From contig JALGVA010000024.1 in assembly GCA_029820295.1 (NCBI GenBank), positions 1 to 43,342 of the forward strand: a DNA stretch of 43,342 bases. Reading direction: 5' to 3'. Each line of letters starts with the position of its first letter. The stretch's first letter is position 1. Below the pieces are notes generated by a model that searched no databases, was not told the origin of the DNA, and was given only the letters and a program-made list of their open reading frames with translations. Shown piece by piece: positions 33,255 through 43,342 of the stretch. This DNA is from Candidatus Zipacnadia bacterium. Lineage in GTDB: Bacteria; Armatimonadota; Zipacnadia; Zipacnadales; UBA5352. The position numbers and the translations under genes were made by a program.

Positions 33255-34817
33255 CTACTCCCACTCGATAGTGCCGGGGGGCTTCGAGGTGATGTCGTAG
33301 ACGACGCGGTTGACCCCGCGCACCTCGTTCACGATGCGGTTCGAGATGCGTCCCAGCAGTTCGTGCGGCAGGTCCGCCCAGTCGGCGGTCATGAAGTCGT
33401 CGGTGGTGACCACACGCAGGATAATCGGGTGCTCGTAGGTGCGCCCGTCGCCCATGACCCCCACGCTGCGCATGGTGGCGAGCACCGCGAACCACTGCGC
33501 CAGACCGTCGATGCCCGCAGCGGCGATCTCCTCGCGCAGGATCGCGTCGGCCTCGCGCACCGTCTCCAGCCGCTCGGGCGTGACCTCGCCCACGATGCGC
33601 ACCGCCAGGCCCGGGCCCGGGAAGGGCTGGCGCCACACGATGCTCTCGGGCAGGCCCAGTTCGAGTCCGACCCGGCGCACCTCGTCCTTGAACAGCGAGC
33701 GCAGCGGCTCGATGTTTTCGAAGACCATGTCGTCGGGCAGCCCGCCCACGTTGTGGTGGGTCTTGATGGTGGCGGTCTCCCGCCCACCGCTCTCGATGAC
33801 GTCCGGGTAGAGCGTGCCGTGGGCAATGAAGCGGAACTCGCCCAGCTTCGCCGCCTCGCGCTCGAAGGTGCGGATGAAGGTCTCGCCGATGACCCGCCGC
33901 TTCTGCTCCGGGTCGGCGACGCCCTGGAGCCCGGTCAGGAAGTCCTCGGATGCGTCCACGAAGACGAAGCGCTCGCCCAGCCGCGGCGCGAACGTGTCGA
34001 TGACCTCGCGCGCCTCGCCCTTGCGCAGGAGCCCGTGGTCGAGGAACATGCAGGTGAGCTGGTCGCCGATGGCGCGGTCCATGAGCATGGCCACCACCGA
34101 CGAGTCCACGCCGCCCGAGAGCGTGCACAGCACGCGCTCGTCTCCCACCTGCGCGCGGATCTCCTCCACCGCCTGCTCGATGAACGACTCGGTGCGCCAC
34201 GTGCCGTGGCAGCCGGCGATGTCATGGAGGAAGTTGCGCAGGATGTCCATGCCCTCGGGCGTGTGCCGCACCTCGGGGTGGAACTGCACCGCGCACATCC
34301 TCCGGTCCAGATCGGCCATGGCCGCCACCGGGCTGTGCTCGGTCGAGGCGAGCACCACAAACCCCTCCGGCACGCGCTCGACGCGGTCGCCGTGGCTCAT
34401 CCAGCACACGGTATCCTCGGGCACGCCTGTCATCAGCGTATCGGGCTCGCGCACGTGCAGCTTCTGGCGGCCGAACTCGCGCGAGTCGCCGGGCTGCACC
34501 GCTCCGCCCAGCACGTGCGCCATGAGCTGGCAGCCGTAGCAGATGCCCAGGATGGGGATGCCCATCTCGAAGATGGCCGGGTCGAACTCGGGCGCATCCT
34601 CCTCGTAGACGCTGGCGGGCCCGCCCGAGAGCACCAGCGCGGTGGGCCGCTGCTCGCGCACCGCCTCGGCGCTGACGGACGACGGCACGATCTCGGCGTA
34701 GACGTTCAGCTCGCGAATGCGGCGGACGATGAGCTGTACGTATTGCGCGCCGAAGTCGAGTACGAGCACCTTCTCAAGCTGAGAGGGCAGTTGGGCGGGA
34801 CGAGGTTGGTGACTCAT
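33255..34817 (-). CDS. guaA: GMP synthase (glutamine-hydrolysing)
   Basis: This 520-residue two-domain enzyme converts XMP to GMP with glutamine and ATP. The class-I amidotransferase triad is C93 (ICYGCQ), H180 and E182 (QFHPEV). The ATP-pyrophosphatase P-loop SGGVDSS is at 234-240, and the C-terminal dimerisation domain ends IEWE, as in most GuaA proteins. The ATG at 34817 has only a weak ribosome site. A perfect -35 promoter and a leader of about 224 bases lie upstream. It heads the guaA-hpt-rho unit, so purine supply and Rho share a promoter. Confidence 0.95.
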
Positions 34818-35414: not shown

Positions 35415-36254
35415 CTACTCCCTCTCCTTCATGCGCTCGCGCTCGCGCTCGAGGTGCTGGTCGATGCGTTCACGCGCGTCCTCGATCATCGGCTCGACAT
35501 CGGCCATCGTCCAGGTGCGCTGCTCCCAGGTGCGCACCTCGACCGTCTCCAGGAACTTCTCCATCTCCTCGAAGTAAGAGCCGTAGATGTGATACGAGTC
35601 GACGATATGGCTGTACTGGCCGACCGCGATCTCCCGCCCCAGCCGCTCGCTCAGGCGCTCGGCGACCAGGCGCTGCAGATCGGTGAAGGCGTACATGTTC
35701 ATGTACGAGGCCTTGAAGGCGTCGTTGCTGCGCATGTGGCAGGACATGACCAGGCGGTCGCCGTAGACGCGGAACCACATGCGCTGCAGGCAGGCCGGGT
35801 CGTCGATGCCCGCATCCTCCCAGCACTTCCAGATTGAGATCTGCGCGCGGCGGGTGTGCGGGGCGTTGGCGAGGGCATCGACCACGTAGTCGAGCTGGTT
35901 GATGACGCGCCCGTCGGGCAGCGAGTAGGCCTCGATGCGTTCGTGGTAGGTGTACTGCCACTTGCCCTCATCGGGGGCAATCCAGTGGTCGTGCACGCCC
36001 AGGACCACCTCCTGGCGATAGATCTCGAGGTCGTAGATCCCGCCGGGAAGCGCGCGGTGGATGCGTGGCTCGTTGAACGGATTGCGCACCGCCAGCGCCA
36101 GTGAGACGTCGCGGCTGGGCGGATCGCCCTCGCGGTCGTACTGGGTCTCGATAGCCGCCCCCTGCTCCCAGCAGGCGATGACGGCGCGCTCCCAGCCCTC
36201 GGCGAGGTTGTCGGCCTTGATGCAGATCAGCGGCAGATCGAACTGCTCTTGCAT
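35415..36254 (-). CDS. Divergent thymidylate-synthase-like protein (ThyA fold)
   Basis: The 279-residue protein has the ThyA landmarks in order: candidate nucleophile C155 in DDPACLQRMWF, R175-S-N-D178 (matching RSxD of the dUMP-phosphate site), N186, which lies 11 residues after R175 as N177 does after R166 in E. coli ThyA, and H222-I-Y224 (HIY, equivalent to H207/Y209). A dCMP hydroxymethylase would have Asp at the N186 site, so dUMP use is favoured. The spacing around these motifs and the N-terminal half differ from standard ThyA, and a charged C-terminal helix is added. The ATG at 36254 has AGGTGG upstream; an upstream GTG is part of that site. Confidence 0.6.
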   Translation of the reverse strand: MQEQFDLPLICIKADNLAEGWERAVIACWEQGAAIETQYDREGDPPSRDVSLALAVRNPFNEPRIHRALPGGIYDLEIYRQEVVLGVHDHWIAPDEGKWQYTYHERIEAYSLPDGRVINQLDYVVDALANAPHTRRAQISIWKCWEDAGIDDPACLQRMWFRVYGDRLVMSCHMRSNDAFKASYMNMYAFTDLQRLVAERLSERLGREIAVGQYSHIVDSYHIYGSYFEEMEKFLETVEVRTWEQRTWTMADVEPMIEDARERIDQHLERERERMKERE

Positions 36255-36356
36255 GGGCACCCACCTGGTGACGTGGTTGGCGGCTCCCCGCGCCGCGCGG
36301 AGAGCGGTAAGATTGCCCGGGCGCGCGCGGATTCCTCCTCGCGCCCGTCGCGCCGG

Positions 36357-38828
36357 CTACCGCGGCAGCATCAGCCGGCTGGGATCGGTCGCCAGCAGCG
36401 GGATCACCTCCGCGCCCAGGACCAGGCGGTTGTCCTCGAGCGTGCCCCGGCTCGCGCGCGTGATCTCCAGCGACCAGGCCCGGCCGGCGGACTGTGGCGG
36501 GATGTCCAGCGCCACGGTCACGGCCGCCGTCTCGCCGGTCTCGCGGTCGGCCGCGACGGCGCCGTCAGGGTCATAGATGATCAGGCGTCCCAGCTCTCCC
36601 GGCGGTGAGCTGACGAGTTGCACCTCGAAGTGCGTGGCCCCGGGCTCGGGCAGGAAGTACTGCCGCGGCGCAGGGCCGATGTAGGCGGTCTCCGTGCCAT
36701 AGAGGGCGAAGCGTGGGGCGTCGCAGGCCGCGATCAGGGCGTGGCGATCGGGATTCGCGACCAGATTGTAGAGCCCGGCTTCGGCGTCTGTGACCGGGAT
36801 CTCGACGGACCGGCCGGGCACACATGCGCCGGACGCGACCTCGGCGCCATCGGGGCCCAGCAGTACCCAGGCGCCCTGGCTCGTGCCACCGCCGACCCGA
36901 CGCGTGTCGAGCGTGATGGTGAAGTCATCGCCCCGGTCGGCGAGCACCACCCAGCCGTGCGCGCCGCGCACCCGGGGGGACGGTCCCGGGTCCTCCGGGA
37001 GGGGCTCGTCGCTCGCGGCCACCAGCGGCGGGCCGGTGTAGCGCCCGGGGCCCTCGGCCTGCACCCGCACCTCGCGCGCCACGGTATGCACGTGGCGCAC
37101 ATAGTCGATGGCCTGATCATCGGCGTGCGCGTCGGCGTAGGTCATCAGCGCCGCGCGGCGCTCCGCGCTCGGGTCGGCCACGAAGGCGCGCAGCAGCGCC
37201 ACGTAGTCGAGGAGCGTGCGTGCCATCTCCACGCGGCCGCGCTGGCGGTCGGTCTCCGCCTCGCCGGCGGCCTCATCGAGCATCGCGCGCAGCTCCGGCA
37301 GCTCTTCATCGAGCACCAGTAGGCCCTGGTGCTGGCGCTCGCGTGCGCGGGTGATGATGGTCTCGAAGTACTCGCGCATCGTGGCCGCCGCCGGGCCGTA
37401 CATGCCGCTGTACCAGTCGTCCAGCAGCGCCGCCACGTCTTCATCGGGGTTCCACATCAGCTTCGCGGCCAGCCAGAAGTTGATCGCCGCCGAGCCGTAG
37501 TCCACGTTCGCCTCGGAGCTGATGCCGACCACGTGGTGATCGCGGTACCAGGGCATGTTCTCAGCCAGCGAGTAGCCCACCGCGGCGCGCGTGATCGCCT
37601 CAGTCTCGGGCACCAGCCCGGTGAAGTACTCGCGCGCCATGACGGTGTCGCAGATCGCGGCCCAGCCCTCCAGCAGCTCGCGGAAGCGCGCTCCCGGCTC
37701 GCAGCGCGGGTCGTCGAAGGCGTGGATGCCGCAGCCCACGCGGCCGTAGGGCGCGACCGCGACCACGACGTTAGGGTGCGCGCGCACATCGGTCGGCGGC
37801 TCGACGGTGCCCGCGTAGGCGTAGAACGCGACGTAGCGGTCCGGGTGGGTCTGCGCGAGCTGTTCGGCCACCTGGTTGGCGAAGATGAGCATGCGCCGGC
37901 CCATGTACCCGCCCTGGCCGGTGCCGGCCTCAGGCGGGTCCAGCGCCCGGCAGGCGGCGCACTCGCACCAGCCGTAGCCGTCGTTGGGGCTGAGCGAGAA
38001 GCTCCACAGCTCCGGGTCCTCGTCGAAGGCGGCGCGCGCCGCCTCGACCGCGAGGTTCACGACCTCTGGGTTGCTGGTGCACGGCTGCCAGCCTGCCCCC
38101 TGGCCCGGGCGCGGGACCACGCGCCGGCCGCCGAGTTCGCGGAAGTACTCCGGGTGCGTCTCGCCGAACTCGCCGGGCGGGACGATACGCGCCAGGGCGT
38201 GTCCCATCTGCGCCTTGCGCCCGCCCATCTTGTTGCGCATGCGCCACTGGGCGTAGCCGTTCACCTGCCAGTCCGGCCGCCGGCCCCATGAGTACCACAC
38301 GTTGCGCACGATCATCGCGGGGTTCTCTGCGTTCTCCATCCAGCTCACGCGAATGGTCGGCGTCTGCGGGATCTCCTCGCCCAGCTCGCCCGGGAAGTAC
38401 CAGCGCACGCCGAGCTGCTCGAGCAGGTCGCAGACGCCGAACATGAGGCCCTGCGGGTCCTTGCCCAGCACCCCGAGCAGCGTCGAGCCATCGCACATCT
38501 GATAGAAGCCCTCGGCGCGCAGCGGCGGCACCTCAATGCCGAACTGCCACGCCGTCTCCTCGCCCACCACCAGCACCGCGAGTCGCCGGCCCTCGTAGTA
38601 GGCGGTCTCCAGCTCCCACGCCTGCATGGTCTCGATGGGCAGCTCGGCGCCGCTCATCGCGTGCAGGTAGTGCTGCAGCTCCAGTGCCGCCTCCTCGGCG
38701 CCGGGCTGGCCGAGGTGCACGATGGTCGCGACCGGCTGACCGTCCTCGACCAGCGTTACCTCAGCGGTGGCGCCACACGCGCACACCAGCAGCAGGCTGA
38801 TGACGGACACAAGCGCGAGCGGTCTCAT
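36357..38828 (-). CDS. Secreted DUF4838 domain protein (glycoside-hydrolase-like)
   Basis: The 823-residue exported protein has a signal peptide (ALVSVISLLLVCACGATA, cleavage near ATA-EV). An N-terminal domain of about 130 residues resembles the alpha-glucuronidase N-terminal (GH67-N-like) fold (AALELQHYLHAMSGAELPI). A TIM-barrel region fitting DUF4838 follows, with FSLSPNDGYGWCECAACRALDP as its best-known stretch. A C-terminal half contains helical and beta-sandwich parts. The catalytic residues are not established for this family. The start follows AGAGGAGG. The gene is divergent from the DUF6785 gene and may share its regulation. Confidence 0.8.
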   Translation of the reverse strand: MRPLALVSVISLLLVCACGATAEVTLVEDGQPVATIVHLGQPGAEEAALELQHYLHAMSGAELPIETMQAWELETAYYEGRRLAVLVVGEETAWQFGIEVPPLRAEGFYQMCDGSTLLGVLGKDPQGLMFGVCDLLEQLGVRWYFPGELGEEIPQTPTIRVSWMENAENPAMIVRNVWYSWGRRPDWQVNGYAQWRMRNKMGGRKAQMGHALARIVPPGEFGETHPEYFRELGGRRVVPRPGQGAGWQPCTSNPEVVNLAVEAARAAFDEDPELWSFSLSPNDGYGWCECAACRALDPPEAGTGQGGYMGRRMLIFANQVAEQLAQTHPDRYVAFYAYAGTVEPPTDVRAHPNVVVAVAPYGRVGCGIHAFDDPRCEPGARFRELLEGWAAICDTVMAREYFTGLVPETEAITRAAVGYSLAENMPWYRDHHVVGISSEANVDYGSAAINFWLAAKLMWNPDEDVAALLDDWYSGMYGPAAATMREYFETIITRARERQHQGLLVLDEELPELRAMLDEAAGEAETDRQRGRVEMARTLLDYVALLRAFVADPSAERRAALMTYADAHADDQAIDYVRHVHTVAREVRVQAEGPGRYTGPPLVAASDEPLPEDPGPSPRVRGAHGWVVLADRGDDFTITLDTRRVGGGTSQGAWVLLGPDGAEVASGACVPGRSVEIPVTDAEAGLYNLVANPDRHALIAACDAPRFALYGTETAYIGPAPRQYFLPEPGATHFEVQLVSSPPGELGRLIIYDPDGAVAADRETGETAAVTVALDIPPQSAGRAWSLEITRASRGTLEDNRLVLGAEVIPLLATDPSRLMLPR

Positions 38829-38895
38829 CGGCGGGGCCTCCTCTGACTCTCGACGAGATGCTGCTGATGGATGATGGCGGATCGCGGGAAAGGGC

Positions 38896-38924
38896 TACAC
38901 CGATTCGGCTCAGGCTGCTATAAT
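38896..38924 (+). promoter_or_regulatory. Extended -10 promoter for the DUF6785 gene
   Basis: TGCTATAAT (38916-38924) is a perfect extended -10, while the best -35 (TACACC at 38896-38901, 17-base spacer) matches only three of six positions. Transcription would start near 38931, giving a leader of about 105 bases before the ATG at 39035. Confidence 0.6.
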
Positions 38925-39034
38925 ACCTCCCGGTTGCCGGGCCGGCCGCCGCGCCACCGGCGACCTTGTCGTTTGCCCCGACCGCATCAACGCCAGGCGC
39001 CGCCGCCGCGGGGCCGCCCTGGAGGCAGTTGTCC

Positions 39035-41035
39035 ATGGCAAAGGACGTGCATGTCGAGACGCACTCGCTGTCGCAGGAGCCCCGGCCGGCCGAGGAGGCG
39101 CACGGTCTGTCGCTGCGCGCGGCGGTGCTGTCGCTGGGCTTCTTTATCATCTCGCTGATCTGGATGCGCCAGGCCGGGCTCATCACCCTCAGCGCCCAGA
39201 TAGGGGAGAGCGTGCCGGTGATCCCGGCGATCGCCGCCGTGCTGATTCTGGCGGTGCTCTCGCCGCTCCTGCGCAAGCTCCCGCGGCTGTTCCACCTGCC
39301 CGAGTCGCAGATCCTGCTGATCTACTCGTTCCTGGTGATCGCGGTCTCCATGCCCTCGGTGGGCGTGGTGCGCCAGATCCTCCCGCAGATCACCGTGCCC
39401 TACTACTTCCAGGGCGTCGAGAACAACTACGACGTGCTCATCAGGGAACTCCCCGACTGGCTGTCGCCCGACCAGGACGTCATCATGACCATGTACGAGG
39501 GCAGCGATGCGGGCCTCATCCCGTGGAGCGGCTGGATCACGCCGCTGGCGGCCTGGACCTTCTTCCTGCTCGCGACCTACATCACCATCTATGCGCTCAT
39601 GCTCCTCTTCCGGCGCCAGTGGATCGAGAAGGAGCACCTGACCTTCCCCATCGTGCAGCTCGTGCTCGACGTGGCCGACGACTCGGGCCGGCGCGTAGCG
39701 GGCGGGCTGATCCGCAACCCGGTCATGTGGACCGGCTTCGGCCTCGCCGCGATCTACAACCTGATGAACATGGCCAACGCCTGGAACCCCGGGGTGCCCG
39801 CGCTGGGCAAGGCCTTCAACCTCGGCGCGCTGTTCACCGAGCGCCCCTGGTCGGGGATGGGCGGGCTGCAGATCGCCTGGCGTCCTGAGAACTTCGGCAT
39901 CGGCTACCTGGTGCCCACCGACATCCTGCTCTCCGTCTGGCTCTTCGCGCTGCTCATGCGCTTCGCCAACGTCGCCCAGATCGCCATGGGCTTCGACATC
40001 GCCGGCTTCCCCTTCGAGCGCCAGCACGCCTGGGGCGGCTACATCGCCTTCGGCCTGGTGCTCTTCTGGATCGGCCGCCATCACGTCGCCGACGTCTTCC
40101 GCAAGGCCTTCACCGGCGCGCCCGACGTCGATGACAGCGGCGAGCCCTTCGGCTACCGCACCACGGTCATCGCCATGATTCTGGGCTTCGTGGGCATGGT
40201 AGTCTTCGGCGTGATGAGCGGGCTGTGGCTGTGGGTGGCGCTGCTCTACTTCGGCCTGTGCCTGTTGTTCGCGGTGGTGTACGCGCGCGCCCGCGCCGAG
40301 GGCGGTGCGGCGCTGGTCTGGCTGTTCCCCATCTCCCAGGGCTGGGAGATGCTCTTCCCGGTGCTGGGCTCGCAGATCTTCCAGAGGGGCGAAAGCTGGC
40401 GCAACATGGGCGCGCTGGGCATGCACTACTGGCTCGCCCGCGGCTACTTCCCGTCCATGGGCGCCTACCAGATGGAGGGCTTCCGCATCGCCCAGGACGC
40501 CAACATCCGTCAGCGCACCATGGTTTACTGGATGGTGGCGGCGCTGATCCTGGGCCTGGTGGGCGCCTACATTCTGCACCTCGAGGTCTACTACGGCTTC
40601 GGCGCCAACATCCTCGAGGGCGGCACCACCTCGGGCGGCTCGCGCGTGATCTCCGCCCAGCGCGCCTGGGACACCCTCTCGGGCTTCGTGTCCGCCCACC
40701 ACGTCACCGACTGGAAGCAGACCGGCGCGGGGATCTCCGGATTCGCCATCACCATCCTGCTCGTGGTGCTGCGCAGCCTCTTCCTGCGCTTCCCCCTGCA
40801 CCCGCTGGGCTTCGTCATGGTCATGTCCTACGCGGGCCCGATCTGGGGCCCGTTCTTCATCGTGTGGGTGCTCAAGAGCCTGATTCTGCGCGTCGGCGGC
40901 ATGGGTTCGTACCGCCGCGCCATCCCGTTCTTCCTCGGGCTGGTGCTGGGCCACTTCTTCACCGCCGGCGTGGTGTGGGGCAGTATCAGCATGATCAACG
41001 ACATGTACCGCCGCTACGGAGTGTGGTTCGGGTAG
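39035..41035 (+). CDS. DUF6785 family membrane protein (oligopeptide-transporter-like)
   Basis: The 666-residue integral membrane protein has at least a dozen hydrophobic segments, the first at about 31-50 (FFIISLIWMRQAGLI). Conserved stretches include WIEKEHLTFPIVQL, WRPENFGIGYL, WGGYIAFGLVLFWIGRHH, WEMLFPVLGSQIFQRG, RNMGALGMHYWLARGYFP and HPLGFVMVMSYAGPIWGP. The pattern fits DUF6785/DUF6784 proteins, which look related to OPT oligopeptide transporters, and suggests a solute importer. The substrate is unknown. The N-terminus is soluble and lacks a signal peptide. GGAGG nine bases before the ATG fixes the start. Two small membrane protein genes and a heparinase follow on the same strand. Confidence 0.78.
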   Translation: MAKDVHVETHSLSQEPRPAEEAHGLSLRAAVLSLGFFIISLIWMRQAGLITLSAQIGESVPVIPAIAAVLILAVLSPLLRKLPRLFHLPESQILLIYSFLVIAVSMPSVGVVRQILPQITVPYYFQGVENNYDVLIRELPDWLSPDQDVIMTMYEGSDAGLIPWSGWITPLAAWTFFLLATYITIYALMLLFRRQWIEKEHLTFPIVQLVLDVADDSGRRVAGGLIRNPVMWTGFGLAAIYNLMNMANAWNPGVPALGKAFNLGALFTERPWSGMGGLQIAWRPENFGIGYLVPTDILLSVWLFALLMRFANVAQIAMGFDIAGFPFERQHAWGGYIAFGLVLFWIGRHHVADVFRKAFTGAPDVDDSGEPFGYRTTVIAMILGFVGMVVFGVMSGLWLWVALLYFGLCLLFAVVYARARAEGGAALVWLFPISQGWEMLFPVLGSQIFQRGESWRNMGALGMHYWLARGYFPSMGAYQMEGFRIAQDANIRQRTMVYWMVAALILGLVGAYILHLEVYYGFGANILEGGTTSGGSRVISAQRAWDTLSGFVSAHHVTDWKQTGAGISGFAITILLVVLRSLFLRFPLHPLGFVMVMSYAGPIWGPFFIVWVLKSLILRVGGMGSYRRAIPFFLGLVLGHFFTAGVVWGSISMINDMYRRYGVWFG

Positions 41036-41136
41036 AAGGGGCGGCAACCGTGAACCGGGAACGGCGACGGGATAAAGCTTAGGCGCCTGGACGCCCGGGT
41101 AGAGAGGCGCTGGCGCAGATGTGAGGGGGAAGTCGC

Positions 41137-41439
41137 ATGGCCCTGCTGGTGTGGATCGTCGTCGGACTGCTGGTGGGCTTCATCGGGGCCTACGTGGCAG
41201 GCTGGGACCGGCGTGACATCCGCCTCTACGTCTACGCCGCCGCCGCGGCGATCTTCGGCGGTCTGCTGGGGGGCGTGTGGGTCCGGGCGCTGATCCCCGG
41301 CGCCCCCGGGCATGGCATCGCCGAAGGGCTGATGAACGTCCTCACCGATCCACTCTACGCCGTCCGCGGCGCCGCCCAGTGGGCGGTCATCGTCACCGCT
41401 GTCTACCTCTACGGCCTGCGCCGCGGCTGGTGGCGATAG
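41137..41439 (+). CDS. Small membrane protein downstream of DUF6785 (100 aa)
   Basis: Three hydrophobic stretches (about 3-21, 33-51 and 80-93) and a basic tail RRGWWR suggest a three-helix membrane protein. The ATG follows GAGGGGGAAGTCGC. It is separated from the DUF6785 gene by 101 bases and from the next small gene by 11. No family was recognised. It could be an accessory subunit of the transporter, but that is a positional guess. Confidence 0.65.
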   Translation: MALLVWIVVGLLVGFIGAYVAGWDRRDIRLYVYAAAAAIFGGLLGGVWVRALIPGAPGHGIAEGLMNVLTDPLYAVRGAAQWAVIVTAVYLYGLRRGWWR

Positions 41440-41450
41440 GAGGGCGAGGC

Positions 41451-41702
41451 ATGGCCGCGTGGGTTTTCCCGATCGTGCTCAGTGCCGTCATCGGCATCGC
41501 CGCCGGACTCATGGAGAACTGGGGGCGTGGTGATGCCATCCCGAACTTGCGCATACTCGCGGTCGGGCTGGTCGCGGCCCTCGGGTCCGCCCTGCTGTCG
41601 ATGCTGATTCTCGGCCAACTCATCATCTGGTTCCCGGTCATACTTGCGCCCGCCGCGCTGCTCATCGACCGTACCACGGCAGACGCGCGTCGCGGCCTGT
41701 GA
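41451..41702 (+). CDS. Small membrane protein (83 aa), second accessory candidate
   Basis: The 83-residue protein has three hydrophobic segments (about 4-20, 35-53 and 56-70) with a loop ENWGRGDAIPNL. The ATG at 41451 follows GGAGGGCGAGGC, and the gene begins 11 bases after its neighbour, so both are one operon. Family unknown. Its last residues (DRTTADARRGL) are probably cytoplasmic. Confidence 0.65.
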   Translation: MAAWVFPIVLSAVIGIAAGLMENWGRGDAIPNLRILAVGLVAALGSALLSMLILGQLIIWFPVILAPAALLIDRTTADARRGL

Positions 41703-41720
41703 GCGAGAGGAGCTGTCACC

Positions 41721-43202
41721 ATGGATGCGCCGCTGATCGTGCTCGGAATCGCCGTGCTGGTCGTGGTCTCGACCATGGACGCCGTCGCCGATGAGCCGCC
41801 CGACCCCGCGCGCGTGAGTGAGATCGCGCAGATGCTGCCCGAGACCGCCGAGGGCCTCGGCCGGCCCATCACCGACCGCGAGACGTGGGACGCCCTCGCC
41901 GCGACCCCCGCCTACCAGGCCGTCATCGCGCGCGCCGAGAAGCTGCTGGACGAGCCGCTCCCCGAGCAGCCGGACGACCTCTATCTGGACTTCTCGCGCA
42001 CCGGCAACCGCACGCGCTGGCAGAACGTGGCCAACCAGCGCCGGGGCCGGTTGGCGCCGCTGGTGCTGGCCGAGTGCGCCGAGAACCGGGGGCGCTTCGT
42101 CCCGGCCATCGAGGAGCTGGTCGCCGCTCTGGCCGCCGAACGCACCTGGGTGATGCCCGCGCACGACCGCAGCCTGGCCAACTTCAACCGCGAGCGCACC
42201 GACATCGACCTGGCGTCCTCGGCGCTGGGCTGGCATCTCGCGACCGCCAACTGGCTGCTGGGCGAGCGCCTCAGCGCCGAAACGCGCGCACTGATCCGCG
42301 CCAACGTCGAGGAGCGTATCCTGGCGCCCTACCGGGCCATGTACTCGGGCGAGCGCGATCCCAACTGGTGGATGCACACCACCAACAACTGGAACGCGGT
42401 CTGCCTCGCGGGCGTGACCGGGGCGGCGCTGGCGCAGATCGACGATGGGACCCTGCGCGCGGAGTTCGTGGCCGCGGCGGAACGCTACTCGCAGAACTTC
42501 CTCAACGGCTTCACCCCCGACGGCTACTGCAGCGAGGGCCTGGGCTACTGGAACTACGGCTTCGGCAACTATGTACTGCTCGCTGAGACCGTGTGGCAGG
42601 CGACCGGCGGGGGCGTGGACCTCATGGCCCGCCCCCACGTGGCCGCGCCCGCCACCTTCGGCGCGCGCATCCAGATCATGGGTGGCGTGGCGCCCGCCTT
42701 CGCCGACTGCTCCATCAACGCCCATCCCGACCGCCTGACCATGTTCTACGTGAACCGGCGCTACGGCCTGGGCCTCGCCGAGTACGACAGCGTGGATCTC
42801 TCGTGGACGACCGGCAGCCTGTCGAACGCACTCATCTTCGGCCTCCCGAACTCGGCGTCACGCGGGCAGACGATCGCGGGGGCCGAAGTTGGGTCGATGG
42901 TGCGCACCTGGTTCGGCGACGCCGGCATCCTGATCGCGCGGCCCGGCGAGGGCTCCGACGCGACCCTGGGCGTCGCGCTCAAGGGCGGGCACAATGCCGA
43001 GCACCACAACCACAATGACGTGGGCTCTTACGTGGTGGTCGTGCGCGACCGCGCCGTGCTGCTTGACCCGGGCAGCGAGGTCTACACCGCGCGCACCTTC
43101 AGCGGCCGGCGCTACGAGAGTAAGCTGCTGAACTCCTTCGGCCACCCGGTGCCGGCTCCAGCGGACCGGCCGGGACGCGCGCGCCAAGGTGCTGGTCAGT
43201 GA
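41721..43202 (+). CDS. Heparinase II/III family protein, frameshifted near its 3' end
   Basis: The exported polysaccharide-lyase-like protein has a signal peptide (LIVLGIAVLVVVSTMDAVA) and an alpha-toroid half with HTTNNWNAVC (NNW at 222-224) and PDGYCSEGLGYWNYGFGNY. The beta-sandwich half contains HNHNDVGSYVVVVRDRAVLLDPG (HNHND at 429-433). These match heparinase II/III proteins, which cleave uronic-acid polysaccharides. The frame is sound to P478 (43152-43154), then turns to nonsense and stops at 43202. The rest of the protein continues in another frame (see next entry). The start follows GAGAGGAG. It is the last visible gene of the DUF6785 operon. Confidence 0.82.
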   Translation: MDAPLIVLGIAVLVVVSTMDAVADEPPDPARVSEIAQMLPETAEGLGRPITDRETWDALAATPAYQAVIARAEKLLDEPLPEQPDDLYLDFSRTGNRTRWQNVANQRRGRLAPLVLAECAENRGRFVPAIEELVAALAAERTWVMPAHDRSLANFNRERTDIDLASSALGWHLATANWLLGERLSAETRALIRANVEERILAPYRAMYSGERDPNWWMHTTNNWNAVCLAGVTGAALAQIDDGTLRAEFVAAAERYSQNFLNGFTPDGYCSEGLGYWNYGFGNYVLLAETVWQATGGGVDLMARPHVAAPATFGARIQIMGGVAPAFADCSINAHPDRLTMFYVNRRYGLGLAEYDSVDLSWTTGSLSNALIFGLPNSASRGQTIAGAEVGSMVRTWFGDAGILIARPGEGSDATLGVALKGGHNAEHHNHNDVGSYVVVVRDRAVLLDPGSEVYTARTFSGRRYESKLLNSFGHPVPAPADRPGRARQGAGQ

Positions 43203-43342
43203 GTTCACCGATGAGCGCGACACGCTGACGCTGGACCTGCGCGCCGCCTACGCGGTCGAGGGCCTGGAGCGCCTCGAGCGCAGCTTCGTCTACGACCGCA
43301 CCGGCGCCGGGTCGCTGATCGTGACCGACATCGTGGAGTTCG
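43153..43342 (+). pseudogene. Continuation of the heparinase II/III gene in a shifted frame
   Basis: From about 43153 a different frame reads RLQRTGRDARAKVLVSEFTDERD... to the window edge, which fits the family's C-terminal beta-sandwich after GHPVP. To rejoin the frames, a loss of 2 mod 3 bases is needed, for example an 11-base loss. A short GCCGG sequence at the junction would suit slippage between direct repeats. It is not known whether the deletion is real or an assembly error, and the 3' end lies outside the window. Confidence 0.65.

Follow-up and report, generated by a model that had tools for sequence, protein, structure and literature searches.

The window, the whole stretch of 43,342 nucleotides analysed here, corresponds to contig C285, part of a genome of 5.63 Mb that is 98.6% complete. 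Among the named relatives of the DUF6785 protein encoded in it, the nearest were found in Candidatus Zipacnadia MAGs, which places the host in Zipacnadia. This group is described as a class of Armatimonadota (PMC10290634), and the families of the locus are not named in the passages found in that paper. A gene for a secreted DUF4838 protein of 823 amino acids (36357-38828, minus strand; Pfam PF16126, E 1e-61) is divergent from a plus-strand row, which consists of a gene for a 666-amino-acid protein with DUF6785 and DUF6784, predicted to be an OPT-fold membrane transporter (39035-41035), the genes of two small membrane proteins, s1 with 100 amino acids (41137-41439) and s2 with 83 amino acids (41451-41702), and the gene of a secreted lyase related to PL33, with a heparinase II/III fold (41721-43202). 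An earlier note on this DNA had described the five genes, and all of them were present where it had placed them. The conserved flank on the minus strand is formed by a thymidylate synthase-like gene (thyA-like, 35415-36260) and the GMP synthase gene guaA (33255-34769), both assigned by Pfam. The thyA-like protein is divergent, is encoded beside guaA and is 74-85% conserved among family relatives.

The start of the DUF6785 gene is most likely the ATG at 39035, rather than the TTG of the 38966 ORF. Its product matched PF20581 (E 4e-113) and PF20580 (DUF6784, E 1e-24) in Pfam. The AlphaFold model, based on 42 sequences, had a pLDDT of 88.7 and a pTM of 0.89. When this model was compared using Foldseek, only two matches with E < 0.001 were obtained, 7wst and 7wsr, both barley Yellow stripe 1 (YS1), with best figures of E 9.5e-10 and TM 0.63/0.69 (TM range 0.6-0.7). 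VIA-align superimposed 559 of the 666 residues on YS1 with a Z of 24.6 and an rmsd of 3.9, and the next chain reached a Z of 5.1; the rows besides YS1 (Z about 5, MFS proteins) were read as background helical-bundle similarity. The comparison bears out the earlier description of the protein as transporter-like and OPT-like, and the model strongly supports an OPT fold. YS1 comprises a core and a scaffold domain with a TM1-H1 hairpin, a broken TM2 and a C-terminal strand, and its mechanism has been described as a proton-coupled elevator (PMC9691689). The DUF6785 model contains a helical hairpin, a broken second helix and a C-terminal strand, in agreement with this description, and we infer elevator transport and ion coupling for DUF6785.

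On the level of sequence the kinship with PF03169 (OPT) is marginal. The window protein had no PF03169 match at E<=1 in Pfam. Three other DUF6785 proteins scored above the PF03169 cut-off in the genome search, but hmmscan with the bias filter did not reproduce these matches and they were dropped as proof of sequence membership. With hhalign, DUF6785 was aligned to four OPT-like proteins of the phylum (84% probability, E 7e-6, 394 columns), whose own PF03169 match was borderline. The DUF6785 profile gave no OPT match among the PDB sequences, where the kinship became visible by fold comparison only. Thus DUF6785 resembles the OPT/YSL family (PF03169; HvYS1, 7wsr/7wst) in its overall fold, but it shares only about 10% identity, it is encoded next to secreted enzymes that degrade carbohydrates or peptides, and its paralogues are extremely expanded. 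Judged by the model it would function like an OPT transporter, yet by the sequence test it is not a PF03169 member. Neither DUF6785 nor an OPT-like match was detected in the plasmid collection, a back-translated peptide search of the genome collection returned two relatives only, and no paper on DUF6785/DUF6784 was found in the literature searched.

The lyase was called heparinase II/III-like in the earlier note. Its Pfam match fell below the curated cut-off (18.4 vs 24 bits), but a profile of nine lyase orthologues matched the PL33 structures 8r6z, 8r75, 8r70 and 8r73 with E values of 1e-50 to 1e-53 (best 1.7e-53). The catalytic residues of PL33 are N238, Y291, H444 and Y470 (PMC11848413), and N223, Y276, H429 and Y455 of the lyase, encoded by the codons at 42387, 42546, 43005 and 43083, aligned with them. 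Since PL33 enzymes are specific for GlcA at their +1 subsite (PMC11848413), the sequence relationship makes a glucuronate polysaccharide the likely target of the lyase. PL33, with its hyaluronan, heparosan, chondroitin and gellan lyases, remains a distant match. The lyase also carries an additional region at its C-terminus, which matched CBM_4_9 weakly. Moreover, the copy in the window is truncated by the contig end; near 43150 (region 43140-43342) its frame breaks and a different frame carries on up to that end, which points to a pseudogene or to an indel of the assembly. The earlier assignment stands with regard to profile and catalytic residues, with the reservation of the broken frame. Intact orthologues of 792-793 amino acids occur in relatives, one of them at L083:11865-14246, and orthologues or relatives of the lyase were found in 25 of 60 related genomes.

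For the DUF4838 protein a GH67-N-like domain had been proposed. Pfam gave no Glyco_hydro_67N match, DUF4838 being the only domain at E<=1, and no match was found among the PDB sequences. The AlphaFold model (pLDDT 89.1) showed a GH115/GH67/GH84-like fold followed by C-terminal beta domains, with Z values of 19.9 for GH115, 17 for GH84 and about 16 for GH67. The resemblance to the alpha-glucuronidases of GH115/GH67 and to GH84 thus extends over about 400-490 residues (Z 16-20) at an identity of 12-16%; the proposal was supported by the fold but not by the Pfam domain. DUF4838 was mentioned once in passing in the literature searched.

The genes s1 and s2 are 11 bases apart, and neither product had a Pfam match above the cut-off. 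Their scores per codon, 0.38 for s1 and 0.21 for s2, were positive and higher than those of 114 comparably sized ORFs that are not genes, which reached 0.17 at most. Three hydrophobic segments were seen in s2, and two clear ones, possibly with a third, in s1, so that of the two unrecognised three-helix proteins announced earlier s2 agrees with the description and the third helix of s1 is uncertain. The suggestion that both are subunits of DUF6785 was not sustained. A homologue of s1 was found neither elsewhere in the genome nor among 60 relatives; s1 was rejected as a general subunit and is a lineage-specific orphan. No such small gene pair was present in the gene calls at the other 33 DUF6785 copies of the genome. 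In a set of 46 genomes from the class, s2 was matched by homologues in G006 and G026 only (identities of 37% and 40%, 23 invariant columns, conserved motif ENWxRGxAIPxxRIL), each directly downstream of the DUF6785 orthologue. Because s2 follows DUF6785 in G006, where the lyase does not adjoin, and stands before the lyase in G026, it goes with DUF6785 and not with the lyase. Neither the 143-nt gap of G003 nor the 383 nt assembled in G005 contained s2. We therefore kept s2 as a narrow-clade accessory only, and its place directly after DUF6785 suggests that it may be a clade-specific protein associated with DUF6785.

The genome contains 34 DUF6785, 37 DUF4838 and 38 Hepar_II_III_C matches. By comparison, six ABC-importer permease domains (BPD_transp_1) were found in 5.6 Mb, forming three systems at C170, C157 and C134 (L181, L182, L183). 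The binding proteins are of the sugar type in two of these and of the phosphate type in the third; no ABC importer for peptides was found. No importer of another type stands beside DUF6785 in the cluster, whose genes contain no SusC/SusD-type Pfam domain. The earlier statement that SusC/D, ABC and PTS importers are missing is thus correct for the cluster, but not for ABC importers in the genome as a whole. With MFS, TRAP and other classes left out of the count, DUF6785 outnumbers all other candidate importers. Its direction of transport is likely import, diversified oligomer uptake would be the simplest use of 34 copies, and the cell probably takes up oligomeric nutrients mainly through these paralogues taken together.

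For the window clade we tentatively propose that DUF6785 is an OPT-fold elevator importer for glucuronate oligosaccharides. The lyase would release oligosaccharides with a terminal (unsaturated) glucuronate outside the inner membrane, and the glycosidase-like DUF4838 protein would perhaps trim them. DUF6785/DUF6784, as an OPT-fold secondary importer, probably a two-domain elevator of core and scaffold as proposed for barley YS1, would then most likely take up the glucuronate-ended products, and s2 may act as its accessory in this clade. This cargo is favoured because the lyase and the DUF4838 protein adjoin DUF6785. Import of sugars by DUF6785 is possible, and we infer both the substrate and the cooperation of the genes. 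Like PULs of the SusC/D type the locus has secreted enzymes beside a candidate importer, but the cluster lacks a SusC/D pair and the importer is a predicted inner-membrane protein of the OPT fold.

Peptide cargo would be favoured by the peptidase of the nearest clade, and the most conserved DUF6785 operons contain peptidases. One of them, TldD/TldE-DUF6785-phosphorylase, was found in 10-12 loci (L020:121-5776 and others among L141-L149, L153, L155, L160, L164 and L166); its phosphorylase gene is of the purine-nucleoside phosphorylase type, and the TldD/E protease pair suggests uptake of peptides or modified peptides. The clade nearest to that of the window is marked by an M28 cluster in 9-10 loci (L025:985-11142 and L089-L092, L094-L098), in which DUF6785 stands with a 1600-amino-acid protein combining an M28 peptidase and a MacB/FtsX permease, a zinc-ribbon four-helix membrane protein, a 330-amino-acid protein without known family and a Gfo/Idh oxidoreductase. 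DUF6785, including the copy in the window, could accordingly be an importer of peptides or modified peptides like the classical OPT transporters, with the lyase and DUF4838 as incidental neighbours; the OPT fold and the lack of a peptide system among the three ABC importers would fit this as well. However, the window DUF6785 and its orthologues have no adjoining peptidase, and in other clades the partners are large secreted proteins of carbohydrate type (DUF6259, CBM9, heparinase-fold), a third clade having a DUF6259 glycosidase-like neighbour together with a response regulator. We regard a peptide importer in the window as a serious alternative, somewhat less probable than an importer of glucuronate oligosaccharides.

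Of the 192 genes that lie no more than four genes away from one of the 34 DUF6785 copies in the genome, 8 were heparinase-fold genes, whereas none occurred among 84 genes at greater distance; about 1.5 would be expected from a base rate of some 38 per 4,900 genes, the latter figure being an estimate. Counted by copies, 5 of 34 had such a gene within 6 kb, where 2.7 were expected, and at the copies outside the window most of these neighbours were on the opposite strand. The enrichment is modest and involves several separate clades, the statistic ignoring the general clustering of such genes. DUF4838 adjoined DUF6785 in 1 of the 34 copies, which corresponds to chance level.

Orthologues of the window DUF6785 were 69-81% identical, and in six loci the thyA-like gene adjoins the orthologue, with guaA beyond. 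DUF4838 lies between the thyA-like gene and DUF6785 in G000, G001 and G003, but not in G002, G004, G005 and G006; considering also the single copy out of 34, it was rejected as a constant partner. The lyase follows the DUF6785 orthologue in G000, G003 and G026, that is in all three crown-clade genomes assembled for more than 400 nt downstream. The adjacency is possible in G004, where the contig with DUF6785 ends 46 nt past the gene and the contig with the lyase starts inside the lyase. On the other hand, the lyase occurs without a DUF6785 orthologue in G007, G008 and G009, for which reason strict co-occurrence was rejected, and apart from the orthologue in G002 and G006. The linkage to lyases is therefore partial: it was seen at the three crown-clade loci that could be judged and, with about 8 genes near the 34 copies, to some extent in the family, but neither as a strict rule nor for the most conserved operons with their peptidases. 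The contigs G001:C694, G004:C108 and G005:C139 (L080, L082, L081) end 0-383 nt downstream of DUF6785, which hints at a repeat or a strain-variable region at this place.

These arrangements could also be explained by position alone, if an ancestral order guaA-thyA-like-(DUF4838)-DUF6785-(s2)-lyase was held by vertical synteny while the genes act independently. Such an accident would agree with the lyase of G008, which adjoins the thyA-like gene although DUF6785 is lacking, with the DUF6785 genes without an adjoining lyase in G002 and G006 and with the missing DUF4838 in G004 and G005. But s2 follows DUF6785 everywhere it occurs, the moderate enrichment of heparinase-fold genes around DUF6785 extends over several separate clades, and the lyase of G005 comes after another DUF6785 gene, a paralogue (77% identical to a copy in L029). 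We consider a mere accident of position unlikely. That DUF6785 moves another cargo, such as a metal chelate, a nucleoside or an envelope-glycan precursor, possibly outward, is very improbable, even though YS1, the sole relative of DUF6785 among solved structures, is a carrier of Fe(III)-phytosiderophore (PMC9691689) and one clade is linked to the purine-nucleoside phosphorylase-type gene, since 34 copies would be a high number if the cargo were a housekeeping chelate or precursor, and since the partners differ by clade, which suggests diversified substrates.

Returning to the uptake of glucuronate oligosaccharides, a wider form of this proposal would make DUF6785/DUF6784 a new OPT-fold branch through which Zipacnadia and related Armatimonadota chiefly import the breakdown products of polysaccharides, uronate oligosaccharides among them. 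It would have taken the place of ABC and SusC/D systems and would use clade-specific small membrane accessories such as s2; in this generality we hold it to be doubtful. DUF6785 is nevertheless a concrete candidate for the route by which abundant uncultured sediment bacteria import what their numerous secreted enzymes release. The OPT superfamily is known for peptides and metal chelates, and to our knowledge no characterised OPT protein carries sugars. If DUF6785 carries sugars, a superfamily of peptide and metal-chelate transporters would be extended to carbohydrates; if it carries peptides, a function class would still be assigned to DUF6785/DUF6784.

PL33-like lyases were also observed near DUF4838 in another family. 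In G023 and G019 the lyase gene is located two genes from that of a 1162-amino-acid DUF4838 protein (L190:204-3692 and L191:9907-13395), and we read this pairing as an independent association.
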